Part shown: piece after piece, positions 33,704 through 61,398 of the stretch | Layout of the letters: each line of letters begins with the position of its first letter | How positions within the stretch are numbered: position 1 is the stretch's first letter | Origin: Limimaricola sp. | GTDB taxonomy: Bacteria; Pseudomonadota; Alphaproteobacteria; Rhodobacterales; Rhodobacteraceae | Length of the DNA stretch: 64,000 bases | Assembly: GCF_016125575.1 (NCBI RefSeq) | Contig: NZ_WGLM01000002.1 | Span: 496,001-560,000, forward strand | Reading direction: 5' to 3' | The notes under the pieces: generated by a model | What the model saw: only the letters and a program-made list of their open reading frames with translations | What the model was told of the DNA's origin: nothing | Database searches by the model: none | Position numbers and translations under genes: made by a program

Positions 33704-33787
33704 GCCCGATGCGAAAGCATCGGGCACGCGCCCGACCCTCCCCCCCGGGGAGGGCGCGTTCCGCACCCACCCCGAGGGTCGGGCGCG
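33704..33787. repeat. GC-rich compound hairpin element, copy A (3' of AT-rich gene)
   Basis: Two adjacent structures. First, GCCCGATGC (33704-33712), loop GAAA, GCATCGGGC (33717-33725), a perfect 9-bp stem with a GAAA tetraloop. Second, a 14-bp perfect inverted repeat (33727-33740 with 33774-33787, arms CGCGCCCGACCCTC and GAGGGTCGGGCGCG) around 33 nt that contain a CCCT/AGGG inner palindrome. The core at 33725-33754, read on the minus strand, matches 23 of 24 positions of the element at 60970-60993 apart from a 6-G insertion. It lies about 30 bp beyond the stop of the AT-rich gene. Confidence 0.6.
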
Positions 33788-33815
33788 GTACATTAGGATT
33801 CAGTGTGAAGTACAA

Positions 33816-34298
33816 TCACGAGGATTTGGACTCTGTAAGCATGTCTCGAATGGAAATGGCTTCTCTCAATAGCGTATCAATTTCTTCGATCGCATTCTTT
33901 GCTGCCCGCTCAGTTATTGATGAGTCAATCTGAAACCACTGTCTTTCTTTGCCCTTTCCTCGTGGAAAAAAGTGCGCAACATGTATATTCTCATTACTAT
34001 TTTCGACGAAGAACGCTCCATGAGCGACGAGGTTCCTGTTCTCAAGCCCTTGCTCTATCTTTTCCGCCAACATTGAAATCCTCAAAGAAATGTTGGGTGG
34101 GCAATCCTTAGCCGCGTCCTTCAATTCTGCAATTAACTTTGGTGTAGTCTTCTTGATTTCGAGGTGTTTCCTAAGTGCAACGCCATCGTGTTCGTCAACA
34201 TTACGCGCTTGCATCAATATTTGCCAAACTGCCAGCTCTAAATGGGCTGCCGTCTGAACATAAATCCCGATGCGAACCAGTAATTGCGCCGGAAGCAT
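33816..34298 (-). CDS. AT-rich hypothetical protein A, downstream of parE
   Basis: 160 residues from ATG 34298 (168 from TTG 34322, which has GAGG 5 bp upstream; both are possible). Base composition is far more AT-rich than all neighbours, and codons such as ATA, TTA and AAT are common, which points to recent transfer. The protein looks all-helical. The segment GLENRNLVAHGAFFVE contains R-N-x3-H (Arg followed four residues on by His), reminiscent of HEPN domains, whose RNase members use such a motif. No assured family. It follows parE by about 50-75 bp on the same strand and is followed by the GC-rich hairpin element. Confidence 0.72.
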   Translation of the reverse strand: MLPAQLLVRIGIYVQTAAHLELAVWQILMQARNVDEHDGVALRKHLEIKKTTPKLIAELKDAAKDCPPNISLRISMLAEKIEQGLENRNLVAHGAFFVENSNENIHVAHFFPRGKGKERQWFQIDSSITERAAKNAIEEIDTLLREAISIRDMLTESKSS

Positions 34299-34372
34299 CT
34301 TCTCTACTAGAGTATATTGCAATTATGCCTCAAGATGCCGAAACAAAGAAGGTGGCAATCCACTGACTGACA

Positions 34373-36331
34373 TCAAACATCCAGCTCCTCAACAAACCTC
34401 GCATTCTCCTGGATGTACTGGAACCGCAATTCCGGCTTTTTCCCCATCAGCCGCTCCACAAGGTCGCCGGTTTCGCCGGGTTCGTCCTCGTCGATACTGA
34501 CCTTGATCAGCTTGCGGGTGTCGGGGTTCATCGTGGTGTCCTTCAGGTCCTTGGCGTCCATCTCGCCCAGACCCTTGAAGCGTTGCACGTCGATCTTGCC
34601 CTTGCCGCCCAGCCCCTTTTCCAGCCAAAGCGCCTTTTCCGCGTCATCGGCGACGTAAAGGCGTTTCGCCCCCTGCGTCAGCCGGTAAAGCGGCGGGCAG
34701 GCAAGGTAGAGGTGCCCGTGATCGATCATCGGGCGCATTTGGGTGAAGAAGAACGTCATCAGCAGCGAGGCGATATGCGCGCCGTCGACATCGGCATCGG
34801 TCATGATGATGATCTTGTCATAGCGCAGGTCGTCGATGTTGAATTTCGTGCCCAGCCCGACGCCCAGCGCCTGCGTCAGGTCGGCAATTTCCTGATTGGT
34901 GCCGATCTTGCCGCTGGCCGCGCCCAGCACGTTCAGGATCTTGCCCCTGAGCGGCAACAGCGCCTGCGTGCGCCGGTCGCGCGCCATCTTGGCGCTGCCG
35001 CCCGCGCTGTCGCCCTCGACGATGAACAGTTCCGTCCCCTCGCGCGCGGTGGCCGAACAATCCACCAGCTTGCCCGGCAGGCGCAGCCGCTTGGTGGCGG
35101 TCTTGCGCGCGGTTTCTTTCTCCTGCTTGCGGCGCAGGCGTTCCTCGGCCCTGAGCACGAGGAAATCGAGGATGGCGCCGGCCGATTTCGGGTCGGCCGC
35201 CAGCCAGTTGTCGAAATGGTCACGCACGGAAAGGTCCACCAGACGCTGGGCGTCGGCGGTGGCCAGCCGGTCCTTTGTCTGGCCGACAAACTCGGGGTCG
35301 CGGATAAAGCAGGAGACCAGCGCGCAACCGCCGGTGATCAGATCCTCGCGGGTGATGTCGGCAGCCTTGCGGTTTTTCGTCAGTTCGCCATAGGCGCGGA
35401 TGCCCTTGAGGATGGCGTTCCAGAACCCGATCTCGTGCGTGCCGCCCTCGGGCGTGGGCACGGTGTTGCAGTAGGACTGGATGAAGCCGTCGCGCGACGG
35501 CGTCCAGTTGATGGCCCATTCCACCTTGCCCGGCACGCCGAACTTTTCCGTGAAGGGAACGGTGCCGGCAAAGGGCCGCTCGGCATAGGTGGTTGTCTTG
35601 TCAAGCTGTTCGCCAAGGTAATCGGCCAGCCCGCCGGGGAAATGGAACACCGCCTCGCGCGGGGTTTCGCCATCGTCGATGGCGGTTTTCCAGCGAATCT
35701 CGACGCCGGAAAAAAGGTAAGCCTTGGAGCGGACCAGTTTCATGATCCGCGCCGGTTTGAACCGGTGATGGCCAAAGATCTCGGCATCGGGGTGGAAGGT
35801 GGTGGAGGTGCCGCGGCGGTTGGGCGCGGGGCCGATCCGTGTCAGCGGACCCTGCGGGATGCCGCGCGAAAACTCTTGTGCCACCAGTTCGCGGTTGCGC
35901 GCCACCTCGACCCGCATGTGATCTGATAGCGCGTTGACGACCGAGGCCCCCACGCCATGCAGGCCGCCCGAGGTCTGGTAGGATTTGTCCGAGAATTTGC
36001 CACCCGCGTGCAGGGTGCACAGGATCACCTCCAGCGCGGATTTGCCGGGGAATTTCGGGTGCGGATCGTAAGGCATGCCGCGGCCGTTGTCGCGGATGGT
36101 GATCGAATAATCCTCGTGCAGTTCCACCTCGATGCGGGTGGCGTGGCCCGCCACCGCCTCGTCCATCGAGTTGTCGAGGACTTCGGCCACGAGATGATGC
36201 AGCGCACGCTCATCCGTGCCGCCGATATACATGCCGGGGCGCTTGCGGACAGGCTCCAGCCCTTCGAGAACCTCGATGGAGGAGGCGTTGTAGTCTGACG
36301 TGTCGGCGCCGGAAAGAAGATCGTCTGCCAT
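34373..36331 (-). CDS. parE: DNA topoisomerase IV subunit B
   Basis: ATPase subunit of topoisomerase IV, which decatenates chromosomes with ParC. 652 residues. GHKL ATPase motifs are VRKRPGMYIGGTDERALHHL, EVLDNSMDEAVAGHA, IRDNGRGMPYDPHPK and YQTSGGLHGVGASVVNALS. The TOPRIM domain begins TELFIVEGDSAGGSAKMARD and has IIIMTDADVDGAHIASLLMT. The C-terminus is QRFKGLGEMDAKDL and onwards to LDV. The ATG at 36331 (MADDLL) is preferred; the in-frame extension to 36391 is not family-like. ParE rather than GyrB is supported by length without a long insertion. Confidence 0.95.
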   Translation of the reverse strand: MADDLLSGADTSDYNASSIEVLEGLEPVRKRPGMYIGGTDERALHHLVAEVLDNSMDEAVAGHATRIEVELHEDYSITIRDNGRGMPYDPHPKFPGKSALEVILCTLHAGGKFSDKSYQTSGGLHGVGASVVNALSDHMRVEVARNRELVAQEFSRGIPQGPLTRIGPAPNRRGTSTTFHPDAEIFGHHRFKPARIMKLVRSKAYLFSGVEIRWKTAIDDGETPREAVFHFPGGLADYLGEQLDKTTTYAERPFAGTVPFTEKFGVPGKVEWAINWTPSRDGFIQSYCNTVPTPEGGTHEIGFWNAILKGIRAYGELTKNRKAADITREDLITGGCALVSCFIRDPEFVGQTKDRLATADAQRLVDLSVRDHFDNWLAADPKSAGAILDFLVLRAEERLRRKQEKETARKTATKRLRLPGKLVDCSATAREGTELFIVEGDSAGGSAKMARDRRTQALLPLRGKILNVLGAASGKIGTNQEIADLTQALGVGLGTKFNIDDLRYDKIIIMTDADVDGAHIASLLMTFFFTQMRPMIDHGHLYLACPPLYRLTQGAKRLYVADDAEKALWLEKGLGGKGKIDVQRFKGLGEMDAKDLKDTTMNPDTRKLIKVSIDEDEPGETGDLVERLMGKKPELRFQYIQENARFVEELDV

Positions 36332-58988: not shown

Positions 58989-59894
58989 ATGCCCATTACA
59001 CCGGACCAGCAGGCCGAAATCGCCGCCGCCCGCGCCACGCCCCGCCCGACGCTGCGCGCGGTCAGCGAGGGGATGGAGGCGCGGCTTTACACCGCGCACC
59101 CGGTGCTGGACCACGGCTTTGTCCGGGTGATCGACTACATGGGCGACGATGCCGCGATCTGTCAGGCGGCGCGGGTCAGCTACGGGCGCGGCACCAAGAG
59201 CGTGCAGAACGACGAGGGGCTGATCCGCTACCTGATGCGGCACTGGCACTCGACCCCCTTCGAGATGTGCGAGGTCAAGCTGCACATCAAGCTGCCGGTC
59301 TTCGTCGCACGCCAGTGGATCCGCCACCGCACCGCCAACGTCAACGAATACTCGGCCCGCTACTCGATATTGGACCGCGAGTTCTACATTCCCGCGCCCG
59401 AACAACTGGCCGCGCAATCGGTCGTCAACAATCAGGGCCGGGGCGAGGCGCTGGAGGCCGAAGAGGCCGCGCGCGTGCTGGACTGGCTGAAGGGCGACGC
59501 CGCGCGGGCCTATGACCATTACGAGGCGATGATCAGCCAGGAGGGCCAGCAGGGGCTGGCGCGCGAACTGGCGCGCATGAACCTGCCCGCGAACATTTAC
59601 ACGCAATGGTACTGGAAGGTGGACCTGCACAACCTGTTTCATTTCCTGCGCCTGCGCGCCGACGCCCACGCGCAATACGAAATCCGCGTCTATGCCGAGG
59701 AGATCTGCAAGATCGTGGCCGACTGGGTGCCAGCGGCCTACGCGGCCTTCGAGGATTACAGGATGGGCGGGGTGACGCTCTCGGCCAAGGCGGTGGACTG
59801 CGTGCGGCGGATGCTGAAAGGCGAGGTCGTGACGCAGGAAACCAGCGGCATGAGCAAGGGCGAATGGCGGGAGTTCGAGGGGTTTTTGGGGTGA
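58989..59894 (+). CDS. thyX: Flavin-dependent thymidylate synthase
   Basis: Makes dTMP from dUMP with FAD, NADPH and methylenetetrahydrofolate. 301 residues. The ThyX signature [15 protein letters not shown] (RHR-x7-S) is present, preceded by [20 protein letters not shown]. The C-terminus ends [10 protein letters not shown]. The start at 58989 begins the conserved MPITPDQQ. The next gene's start overlaps the stop (GTGA). Confidence 0.96.
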
Positions 59895-60838
59895 GTGAGC
59901 GTCCGCCGCTCGACCTGCTGGCGCTTAATTTGGAAGGACGGCCAGTCGGCTTTGCGAAGTTCCGCGAGGGATATTTGGACTGGCTGCAGCCCACGCTATA
60001 TCAGAAGGTATATTCCGGCTTTTTTATTGATCCAGACTCCGTGATCTCCGAGACCGATATTAATCGGGCATGGAGTGACTACATATCCACTTCTATGCCC
60101 AAAAATAGTCAAATTATGAGCTTTCGCCAAGTTGAGGTTCCGCTCGGGCACTATTTACCTAGGATTGCAAGGGTCGGCATTTCTCACCCTAATGATATAA
60201 CTAGTGTAATAAAGAAGACCGCAGCCGATATGGAGGCTGAAGCCATTTACTGTGGAAGATTAAGAATTGCGATAGAGAGATTTCAAGAGATCGCCGAAAC
60301 CGTTCATCTTTCGGAAGATCAAATGTTGGTTTTTGGAGATCAAATTCGTAATCTCTTGATCTTGGCGGCAACGGAGGTCGAGAGTCAGTTCAAGTCGGTT
60401 CTCAAGGTAAATGGGATTGCTCCGAAGAATGCTGGAACCAAAGATTACATCGTTCTGAATGGTGTGATGAGGTTGAGCGAGTATAAAGTTAGGCTGGTCG
60501 CCTATCCATGGATACAGCCATTCAGCCCGTTTCTTGGTTGGGTGGCATCGGAGCCGACAAAGTCCTTAAGCTGGTACCATGCCTACAACGAGACGAAACA
60601 TGATAGCCTATCAAGTTTCAGGGTCGCAAACCTCAAGGAGGCGATTTCTGCTATCATCGCGCAGTATATTTTGTGTGTAGCCCAATTTGGGGCTCCACAA
60701 ATTCAACAACGCTATGATATTTTTCGATCCACTTTCGATATTGTCCAGTATCCAAAGTGGGATGTTTCGGAGATATATGCTTATCAGCGGAGAGAGGAAT
60801 GGCAGCCGATTGAGCTTACTCGATTGGCTAGAAAATAG
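59891..60838 (+). CDS. AT-rich hypothetical protein B, directly downstream of thyX
   Basis: 315 residues from GTG 59891, with GAGGGG 8 bp upstream and the start overlapping the thyX stop. The first ~60 bp are GC-rich like thyX, then composition drops sharply in GC with ATA, TTA and AAT codons, a sign of foreign origin. The helical region [20 protein letters not shown] and the C-terminal [20 protein letters not shown] suggest an uncharacterised helical family with N-x-x-K-H motif, possibly HEPN-like. No catalytic assignment is safe. A GC-rich hairpin element follows the gene. Confidence 0.78.
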
Positions 60839-60934
60839 TTGCCGTCAATAGTCTCTTGTTGAAGGGAAATCAGAAAAGCTACGTGGCGCCAAAGCCATGT
60901 ACGCGCTCTGGGCTTCGCCCGTTCCTCGCGGAAA

Positions 60935-60993
60935 ACCGTCCACCGGACGGTATTCCGGTCGCCCGTCACCCCTCCCCGAGGCTCGGGCGCGTG
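60935..60993. repeat. GC-rich hairpin element, copy B (3' of AT-rich gene)
   Basis: ACCGTCC (60935-60941), loop ACC, GGACGGT (60945-60951), then a core at 60970-60993 (starts CCCTCCCCG, ends TCGGGCGCGTG). This core matches 23 of 24 positions with the minus-strand reading of 33725-33754, apart from a 6-G insertion there. The element lies about 100-155 bp after the AT-rich gene stop. Confidence 0.6.
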
Positions 60994-61071: not shown

Positions 61072-61398
61072 ATGACCCTCTACGGCCTGCCCACCTGTTC
61101 GCTCTGCGCCGCGGCGCTCAAGGCTTTCGCGGCGGCGGACATCGCCGTCACCTTCCGCGACATCCGCGCCGACCCGCTGACGGCCGAGGAGTGGGCGCCG
61201 CTGATCCATGAATTCGGCTCGACCCTGATCGACCGGAAATCGCCCGCCTATCGCAGCCTCTCGGCCTTTCTGCGGGAATCGGACACCGATGCGCAGTTGC
61301 TGGCCAACCCGGTGCTGATGGCCCGCCCGGTCATCACCGACGGCACAAGGTTCACCCTTGGCTGGGACGCGCCGCAGCAGGCCGCCTGGGGCCTTTGA
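61072..61398 (+). CDS. ArsC/Spx family protein
   Basis: 108 residues. Thioredoxin-like start MTLYGLPTCSLCAAALKAFA with a CxxC motif, and later LANPVLMARPVITDGTRFTL, the loop with the family Arg. Members act as arsenate reductases or as Spx-like regulators; without an ars operon alongside, neither can be claimed. It is the first intact gene after the AT-rich island. Confidence 0.85.
   Translation: MTLYGLPTCSLCAAALKAFAAADIAVTFRDIRADPLTAEEWAPLIHEFGSTLIDRKSPAYRSLSAFLRESDTDAQLLANPVLMARPVITDGTRFTLGWDAPQQAAWGL

Follow-up and report, generated by a model that had tools for sequence, protein, structure and literature searches.

Introduction

Integron cassettes are promoterless single ORFs that occupy a fixed site and carry a palindrome at their far end, and defence genes have been reported among their cargo. 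REP-type palindromes are dispersed, GC-rich, intergenic elements located at the 3′ ends of genes. In addition, hotspots of accessory genes that are free of mobility genes are known, for which one report proposes recombination at the flanking core genes (PMC5635113); another proposes that defence hotspots are exchanged without scars through their conserved flanks (PMC10250203). The core-gene-flanked hotspot is a known category, and its single-gene form at a stop codon, together with a C-depleted end of the host gene, was not found described. No description of a thyX or parE hotspot was found in the open-access literature, with preprints outside the scope of the search, and the available text of a Paracoccus paper naming thyX (PMC10732464) describes no thyX hotspot.

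The window analysed here, a 64,000-nt stretch of DNA from Limimaricola sp., holds two loci at which an AT-rich gene lies behind a housekeeping gene, namely thyX and a parE-like gene. The initial annotation had read both as one architecture, with the same core element downstream of each AT-rich gene. The twofold occurrence of an AT-rich gene behind a housekeeping gene stands, whereas the common core turned out to be unconvincing.

Results

Two AT-rich genes in the window

The features of both loci are listed in Table 1. The AT-rich gene that had been described as starting on the thyX stop codon was confirmed as real: its GTG start overlaps the thyX TGA (59892-59894), and its GC content is 0.465, as compared with 0.66 in thyX and 0.65 over the whole window. 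The parE-linked gene, with a GC content of 0.446, begins 50 nt past the parE stop. A survey of 464 kb of this genome gave six low-GC stretches, and an AT-rich ORF was present only in those of the thyX and parE loci. A relative of the ArsC/Spx-like gene on the right flank was detected by tblastn downstream of thyX in many relatives, with or without intervening cargo.

Table 1. Positions of the features of the thyX and parE loci in the window
Feature	Position	Strand	Basis
thyX, flavin-dependent thymidylate synthase, carries the site	58989..59894	+	Pfam Thy1 PF02511, E 1.3e-56
C-depleted thyX tail, final 36 nt ahead of the stop, 3 C	59856..59891	+	C count
AT-rich cargo gene, 315 aa, PHROG 19461 family, probable HEPN-like fold	59891..60838	+	
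GC-rich imperfect palindrome including the 24-nt core 60970-60993	60911..60993	+	Low-scoring match to the family of the parE-side palindrome
ArsC/Spx-like gene, right flank	61072..61398	+	Pfam ArsC
parE-like gene, second site	34373..36331	-	Topoisomerase IV subunit B by resemblance, without family scan
C-depleted end of the parE-like gene, 3 C within the final 36 nt	34376..34411	-	C count
Second AT-rich cargo gene, 168 aa, R-x4-H motif (RNLVAH)	33816..34322	-	
Palindromic element after the parE-linked gene	33724..33789	+	Covariance model, 69.1 bits on +

Low-GC tracts directly behind thyX and parE

The 3′ sides of thyX were collected from relatives in different genera and from 80 named GTDB loci (Marivita, Yoonia, Marivivens, Roseovarius, Tabrizicola and others). 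The loci were picked by the similarity of their thyX to that of the window, with the exception of L114, which was picked for a PIN gene seen there. Without duplicates, 118 thyX loci were obtained, six of which were too short, leaving 112 readable loci from Rhodobacteraceae-type relatives. A low-GC tract was defined by a first 400 nt after the stop with a GC content at least 0.08 below that of thyX. The results showed that such a tract lay directly past the stop in 67 of the 112 loci, with 45 loci lacking it; the count was 63/112 at a stricter cut of 0.10, and 65/110 when the window and L114 were left out. The tracts were 104-1931 nt long, with a median of 894 nt. Among the 62 thyX loci with full flanks, the dip was present in 37 at 0-400 nt, in 31 at 400-800 nt and in 14 of 61 at 800-1200 nt, as compared with 0-3 of 61-62 in all other 400-nt bins from -4.8 to +4.8 kb. 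An earlier locus set gave 26/54 behind thyX versus 0-2 of 53-54 beyond 1.6 kb.

For parE, glpD and dxs, the best-matching 30 loci each were read. A low-GC tract was found behind parE in 16 of 28 readable loci (two of the 30 were too short) and behind the control gene glpD in none of 30 (parE versus glpD, Fisher 4e-7). These results identify the 3′ ends of thyX and of parE as hotspots of single accessory genes, specific against their surroundings and against one control gene, and place both among the core-gene-flanked hotspots, in which one conserved gene borders variable accessory genes. From two loci, the initial annotation had suggested that essential genes repeatedly capture AT-rich genes at their ends, and the same counts bear this out in many genera.

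The thyX tracts mostly consisted of one ORF; an ORF was present at 62 loci, with lengths of 80-540 aa and a median GC of 0.45. In separate classings, 55 of these 62 were assigned to the strand of thyX and 8 of 62 to the other strand. Other-strand cargo accounted for 5 of 13 parE loci with a classed ORF, in a smaller locus set from which 6 of the 30 loci had been dropped, and some of the other-strand ORFs at both genes are short and doubtful. In 39 of the 55 same-strand cargo ORFs, the first start codon lay within 15 nt of the thyX stop, 21 of them at -4; these starts were set mechanically (GTG in 18, ATG in 12 and TTG in 9 of the 39), and an in-frame stop was present within about 60 nt upstream in 32 of the 39. 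An opposite-strand ORF ended no more than 6 nt from the host stop at two thyX loci (L063 and L224) and four parE loci (L123, L125, L131 and L136).

Turnover of the cargo and joints at the thyX stop

The cargo is diverse and foreign-looking, and it varies between genera: among 81 cargo ORFs, only 17 homologous pairs were detected (E 1e-4). On the thyX tree with 112 rows, at least 28 changes of the cargo state were counted, which is below all 60 label shuffles (30-40 changes, mean 35) and implied that the cargo state changes often and is partly inherited.

Captured genes should leave empty sites and joints in relatives, and cargo-free sites and readable joints were observed. In Marivita, where thyX is about 90-92% identical between loci, L156 is free of cargo and its palindrome starts about 40 nt after the thyX stop; beyond the palindrome, L156 aligns with L180 and L191, which bear different AT-rich cargo, and L186, read over 362 nt past thyX, differs again. 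Between congeners, the BLAST ends placed the break of homology at or near the thyX stop: 9-21 nt ahead of it in Marivita, L151/L155 and L153/L154, from -2 to +2 in L145/L146, L149/L157, L161/L183 and L179/L220, and at +7 in L068/L170. In L149/L157, homology returns at the start of a palindrome. Downstream copies of the thyX tail, as the scar of an integrated element, were also sought by aligning the final 60 nt locally to the 3 kb that follow; they occurred in 4 of 59 loci at p<=0.02, at unrelated places, and this candidate was rejected.

A C-depleted end of the host gene

Cargo-bearing thyX genes often end like GAATGGCGGGAGTTTGAGGGGGTTATTGGATGA, whereas cargo-free ones more often end like GAATGGCGCGAGTTC..., and the parE tails showed the same cargo-linked shift. 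Within the last 36 nt, no more than 4 C were present in 57 of 67 cargo-bearing versus 13 of 45 cargo-free thyX genes (Mann-Whitney 2e-10). Among 18 independent pairs from supported branches of a FastTree phylogeny, 9.3 agreed with the association versus 1.1 against it, and 7.6 showed no difference; the corresponding test of tail versus cargo gave a median p of 0.02 (range 0.0005-0.29). For parE, the tail contained on average 4.9 C with cargo versus 6.4 C without cargo, a modest contrast (p 0.04, 28 loci; p 0.01 in an earlier set of 22 loci). Loci with cargo on the other strand were C-poor as well (13 loci, p 0.006 versus cargo-free loci).

In 464 kb of the genome of the window, 359 genes called by codon periodicity had a mean of 12.0 C in this region, and counts of 4 or fewer were reached by thyX and parE only, with 3 C each, exactly the two genes followed by an AT-rich ORF. 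The same two genes were the only ones with such tails among 312 genes in 400 kb of G205, where the two longest low-GC stretches also lie behind them. In G133, 6 of 329 genes had C-poor tails and a clear AT dip was seen at thyX alone, and in another 400 kb of the own genome (C4:1-400000), 3 of 314 tails were C-poor and showed no clear cargo. The C-poor tail therefore goes with cargo at thyX and parE and fails as a general rule elsewhere.

The tail is defined by its composition and has no fixed word; for example, CGG may be replaced by AGG and CTG by TTG. Two strict pattern scans of viral contigs for the thyX tail returned 0 and 0 matches, and a consensus-tail search of plasmids found none; the idea that phages or plasmids carry the tail was rejected on these scans. 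From the C-poor tail of dxs in this genome, this gene had been forecast as a third hotspot; it proved to be a weak candidate, with a low-GC tract in 4 of 29 loci.

The palindromes downstream of the cargo

The 24-nt core behind the thyX-linked gene had been taken for the element behind the parE-linked gene in the same relative orientation. The literal match over 23 positions with a 6-G gap holds, but it is weak evidence, and neither the sameness of the two elements nor their like orientation was confirmed. The 11-mer TCGGGCGCGTG of the core occurs 20 times in the genome versus 14 times for the reversed control, and with up to one mismatch it was found 10 times in the window versus 7.2 expected. 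A genome search with the thyX-side region gave no second significant match (best other E 0.22), and this region was absent from the 11 genome matches that the parE-side query gave at E values of 1 or less. Eight elements, with the parE-side copy among them, were used to build a covariance model of the parE-type palindrome, which scored 15.2 bits (E 1.3) on the thyX-side element, and 69.1 bits on the plus strand and 28.7 bits on the minus strand of the parE-side element. The higher score on the plus strand means that the parE-side element points opposite to its minus-strand gene. A shared core as the cassette mark of both window loci was rejected on the 11-mer counts, the genome searches and the model score, and the thyX-side element would at best be a degenerate relative of the parE-type palindrome.

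At least four copies of the parE-type family were found in this genome, three of the four without an adjoining AT-rich gene. In seven genomes, which were chosen since most of them bear the element at thyX and thus give numbers that are not unbiased, at least 0-7 matches each and at least 23 in total were obtained; these are lower bounds, as no more than 150 candidates were scored per genome, out of as many as 3039. Five of the 23 matches lie at thyX cargo, and the other 18 were all read, 8 of which flank an AT-rich gene by this reading; the family thus tends to be placed at the far end of such genes. The palindrome and an AT-rich gene occurred together at parE (G000 and G412) and, with host identities read from the protein letters, at lepA-like (L397, G133 C1:918237, where the gene is only moderately AT-rich), ettA-like (L406, in G412), and atpF-like and rplP-like ends (L390 and L401, both in G411), which suggests the lepA-, atpF-, rplP- and ettA-like ends as further cargo sites. 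Two further G411 loci carried the same combination, one of which (L402) is doubtful, its ORF running into the element. At L399 (G411 C2:255621), two AT-rich genes stand ahead of the palindrome, one of which resembles a Panacea/SocA-type antitoxin by eye. The palindrome was also seen close behind a cysS-like gene without cargo in three genera (L400, L403 and L407), possibly as empty sites, and one copy lies close behind a pheS-like gene.

Among relatives, the parE-type palindrome is also located behind cargo-free genes, and other palindromes replace it behind cargo. On this ground it looks like a part of the site rather than a mark of the cassette, and it may form the hairpin at the 3′ end of the host transcript. 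A search for a common right-end word of the cargo returned pieces of palindromes and no single motif. Separately, four loci from four genera (L155, L184, L191 and L223) share a similar end of thyX that includes a hairpin (..GAACGACCC..TAG or TGA..GCTCCAGTGGA..; variants), followed by the AT-rich tract.

Products of the cargo genes

A Pfam scan was performed with 60 cargo ORFs, in which three loci are represented by two ORFs each and L065 and L099 are doubtful cargo. The results showed that 26 ORFs passed the curated cut-off, and 18 of these belong to families that we take to be defence or toxin-antitoxin families, i.e., TIR (three), RT (four), OLD-like AAA (three), HEPN_RiboL-PSP (two), and AbiU2, Hypoth_Ymh, PIN_12, RelA_SpoT, HNH_2 and HSDR_N (one each). 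The other families were HAD, YaaC, glycosyltransferase, BRCT, DUF6602, DUF6161, DUF3644 and Trypsin_2, and no integrase or transposase family was found among the 60 ORFs by Pfam. With PADLOC, AAA-type defence models were among the commonest matches of 25 thyX cargo ORFs (2-3 members each). By family assignment, many of the cargo genes at thyX and parE are predicted to be of anti-phage or conflict type. Reverse-transcriptase genes were met repeatedly among the cargo of thyX as well as of parE (L085, L151, L161 and L131). In addition, one cargo family was present at thyX in four genera (L066, L180, L205 and L215; 27-40% identity), with a weak winged-helix match in two members.

The product of the thyX-linked window gene matched PHROG 19461 (E 6e-27). 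Its relatives were found in 11 plasmid records (29-40% identity), in three phage records, two of which represent the same phage SEN8, and by an alignment scan on 19 viral contigs; a single-sequence scan of viral contigs detected no relative. The gene had a match in none of 100 relatives, its product gave no match in a PDB sequence search, and neither this product nor that of the parE-linked gene was matched by PADLOC or NCBIfam. In one of five surroundings viewed, that of a Rhizobium relative, the gene comes after AbiEi/AbiEii; other relatives are one gene away from AbiEii (Methylovirgula) and from RloB (Bacteroides). In SEN8, a P2-like phage, the relative has cos on one side and a putative HNH gene on the other, beyond which comes the portal gene; the neighbours of the Klebsiella plasmid relative, umuC and a helicase gene, are uninformative.

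The AlphaFold model of this product was confident in its helical part and weak at its ends (mean pLDDT 72.8, pTM 0.73). Foldseek ranked HEPN toxins at the top, with E values of 0.59 and up. In a second structural aligner, 16 of the first 20 rows were titled HEPN, MNT/HepT-type or Csm6 (Z 5.6-8.8 for the 20), versus Z of 5.2 or less for unrelated folds; according to the warning of the aligner, Z below about 13 can reflect resemblance alone in helical bundles. The R-x4-6-H motif was absent and the invariant residues include R153, N233, K236 and H237, so the product was not classed as a HEPN RNase. The models point to a protein that probably adopts a HEPN-like fold, and the gene is likely an accessory gene of defence. 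In the product of the parE-linked gene, the motif is matched by RNLVAH, as read from the translation only. This product had no match in PHROGs, reached Pfam only far under the cut-off, had its sole plasmid relative (41%) on a 5.6-kb plasmid of Roseivivax marinus, and had no relative in the phage collection.

Discussion

With a confidence somewhat better than even, we propose that in Rhodobacteraceae-type genomes thyX and parE end in single-gene hotspots at which alleles are swapped by homologous recombination, with the C-poor gene end serving as the boundary. An AT-rich ORF without a mobility gene lies close to the host stop, in most cases on the strand of the host gene and frequently overlapping it by 4 nt, and a GC-rich palindrome often comes next. 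The exchanged unit may comprise the gene end, the cargo and the downstream flank, and the DNA could be delivered by transduction, gene-transfer-agent transfer or transformation. Homologous exchange appears the most likely mode since the cargo carries no recombinases, and it fits best with the small cargo and the strongly conserved gene on the left. The C-poor and G/T-rich gene end might mark the left boundary, either by favouring recombination or by being recognised in some other way. RecA is reported to favour TGG repeats (PMC3763553), from which we infer that a G/T-rich gene end is a plausible pairing-prone border. Same-strand cargo may be read from the transcript of the host gene, with the palindrome as the 3′ hairpin of that transcript; cargo on the other strand (8/62 at thyX and 5/13 at parE) shows that shared transcription cannot be general. 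The partial inheritance of the cargo state, the modest tail contrast at parE and the C-poor tails without clear cargo (13/45 cargo-free thyX, and most such tails in G133 and C4:1-400000, with dxs rarely occupied) also count against this proposal. The window gene would most likely encode a protein of the abortive-infection type with a HEPN-like fold.

The wider idea of an as yet undescribed cassette system, in which a few essential genes capture and swap single defence genes at their ends, with the C-poor, G/T-rich stretch of about 36 nt as a guide and the palindrome as a bound, is put forward here as a tentative possibility that we rather doubt. Slightly less credence is given to a dedicated site-specific system, in which an enzyme acting in trans would insert promoterless single genes at the C-poor tail by an integron-like logic. 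Joints at the stop codon or no more than 21 nt from it, a tail signal that tracks cargo in both genes and also for other-strand cargo, and palindromes at the far end of many loci are all consistent with such an enzyme, whereas the 60 scanned cargo ORFs hold no recombinase family, the tail is a composition rule whose strict patterns are absent from viral contigs and whose consensus is absent from plasmids, and several different palindromes serve at the far end.

The C-poor tail might also be an embedded ribosome-binding region, with translational coupling selecting for an unstructured, G-rich end of thyX and parE. Although much of the cargo begins beside the stop codon and GAGG/GGAG is present in the tails, we consider this improbable: 79 genes of the own genome with a same-strand neighbour no more than 15 nt from the stop had a mean of 11.9 C and a minimum of 7 C, and the other-strand-cargo loci are C-poor too (13 loci, p 0.006). 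Two loci in a single window could arise by chance and the 11-mer of the core is common, but ordinary random insertion with a coincidence at thyX and parE is refuted, to the point of being negligible, by 67/112 thyX and 16/28 parE loci versus 0/30 for glpD and by the very few dips within 5 kb.

The hotspots give an address at which new phage-defence genes could be sought, namely whatever follows thyX or parE in genomes of the Rhodobacteraceae type. They also show that a hotspot can consist of a single gene and be positioned at a stop codon, and the C-depleted gene end offers a testable signal for how hotspots without an integrase arise and exchange. If the cassette reading were true, essential genes would hold a docking sequence within their coding region, written by synonymous codons.

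Integron cassettes resemble the present cargo as single ORFs without a promoter that occupy a fixed site, with a palindrome at the far end and defence genes among them; here, no integrase was found among the 60 cargo ORFs, and the palindromes are varied and also occur behind cargo-free genes. Tn7-like elements target 3′ ends as well; here, the first start codon of 39 of 55 same-strand cargo ORFs is no more than 15 nt from the stop, so that a left end would have little space, and no transposase family was found among the 60 cargo ORFs. In the P2-like phage SEN8 (L227), a relative of the window gene occupies an accessory site next to cos, which is a phage locus rather than the end of a chromosomal gene. 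REP-type palindromes resemble the parE-type family in their dispersal at 3′ ends, with at least 0-7 copies per genome here. The cDHS1 and cDHS2 hotspots of Pseudomonas aeruginosa (PMC10250203) likewise combine a fixed place with diverse defence-type cargo and a sub-chromosomal GC content; cDHS1 spans 1-224 kb in one species, whereas the tracts here span about 0.1-1.9 kb (median 0.9 kb) in many genera. The mobility-gene-free hotspots of Oliveira et al. (2017; PMC5635113) share with thyX and parE a conserved flanking gene, fast-changing accessory genes and often the lack of an integrase; in contrast to them, the hotspots described here usually hold one gene near the stop codon, involve the same two genes across genera, and are bordered by a C-depleted end of the host gene.
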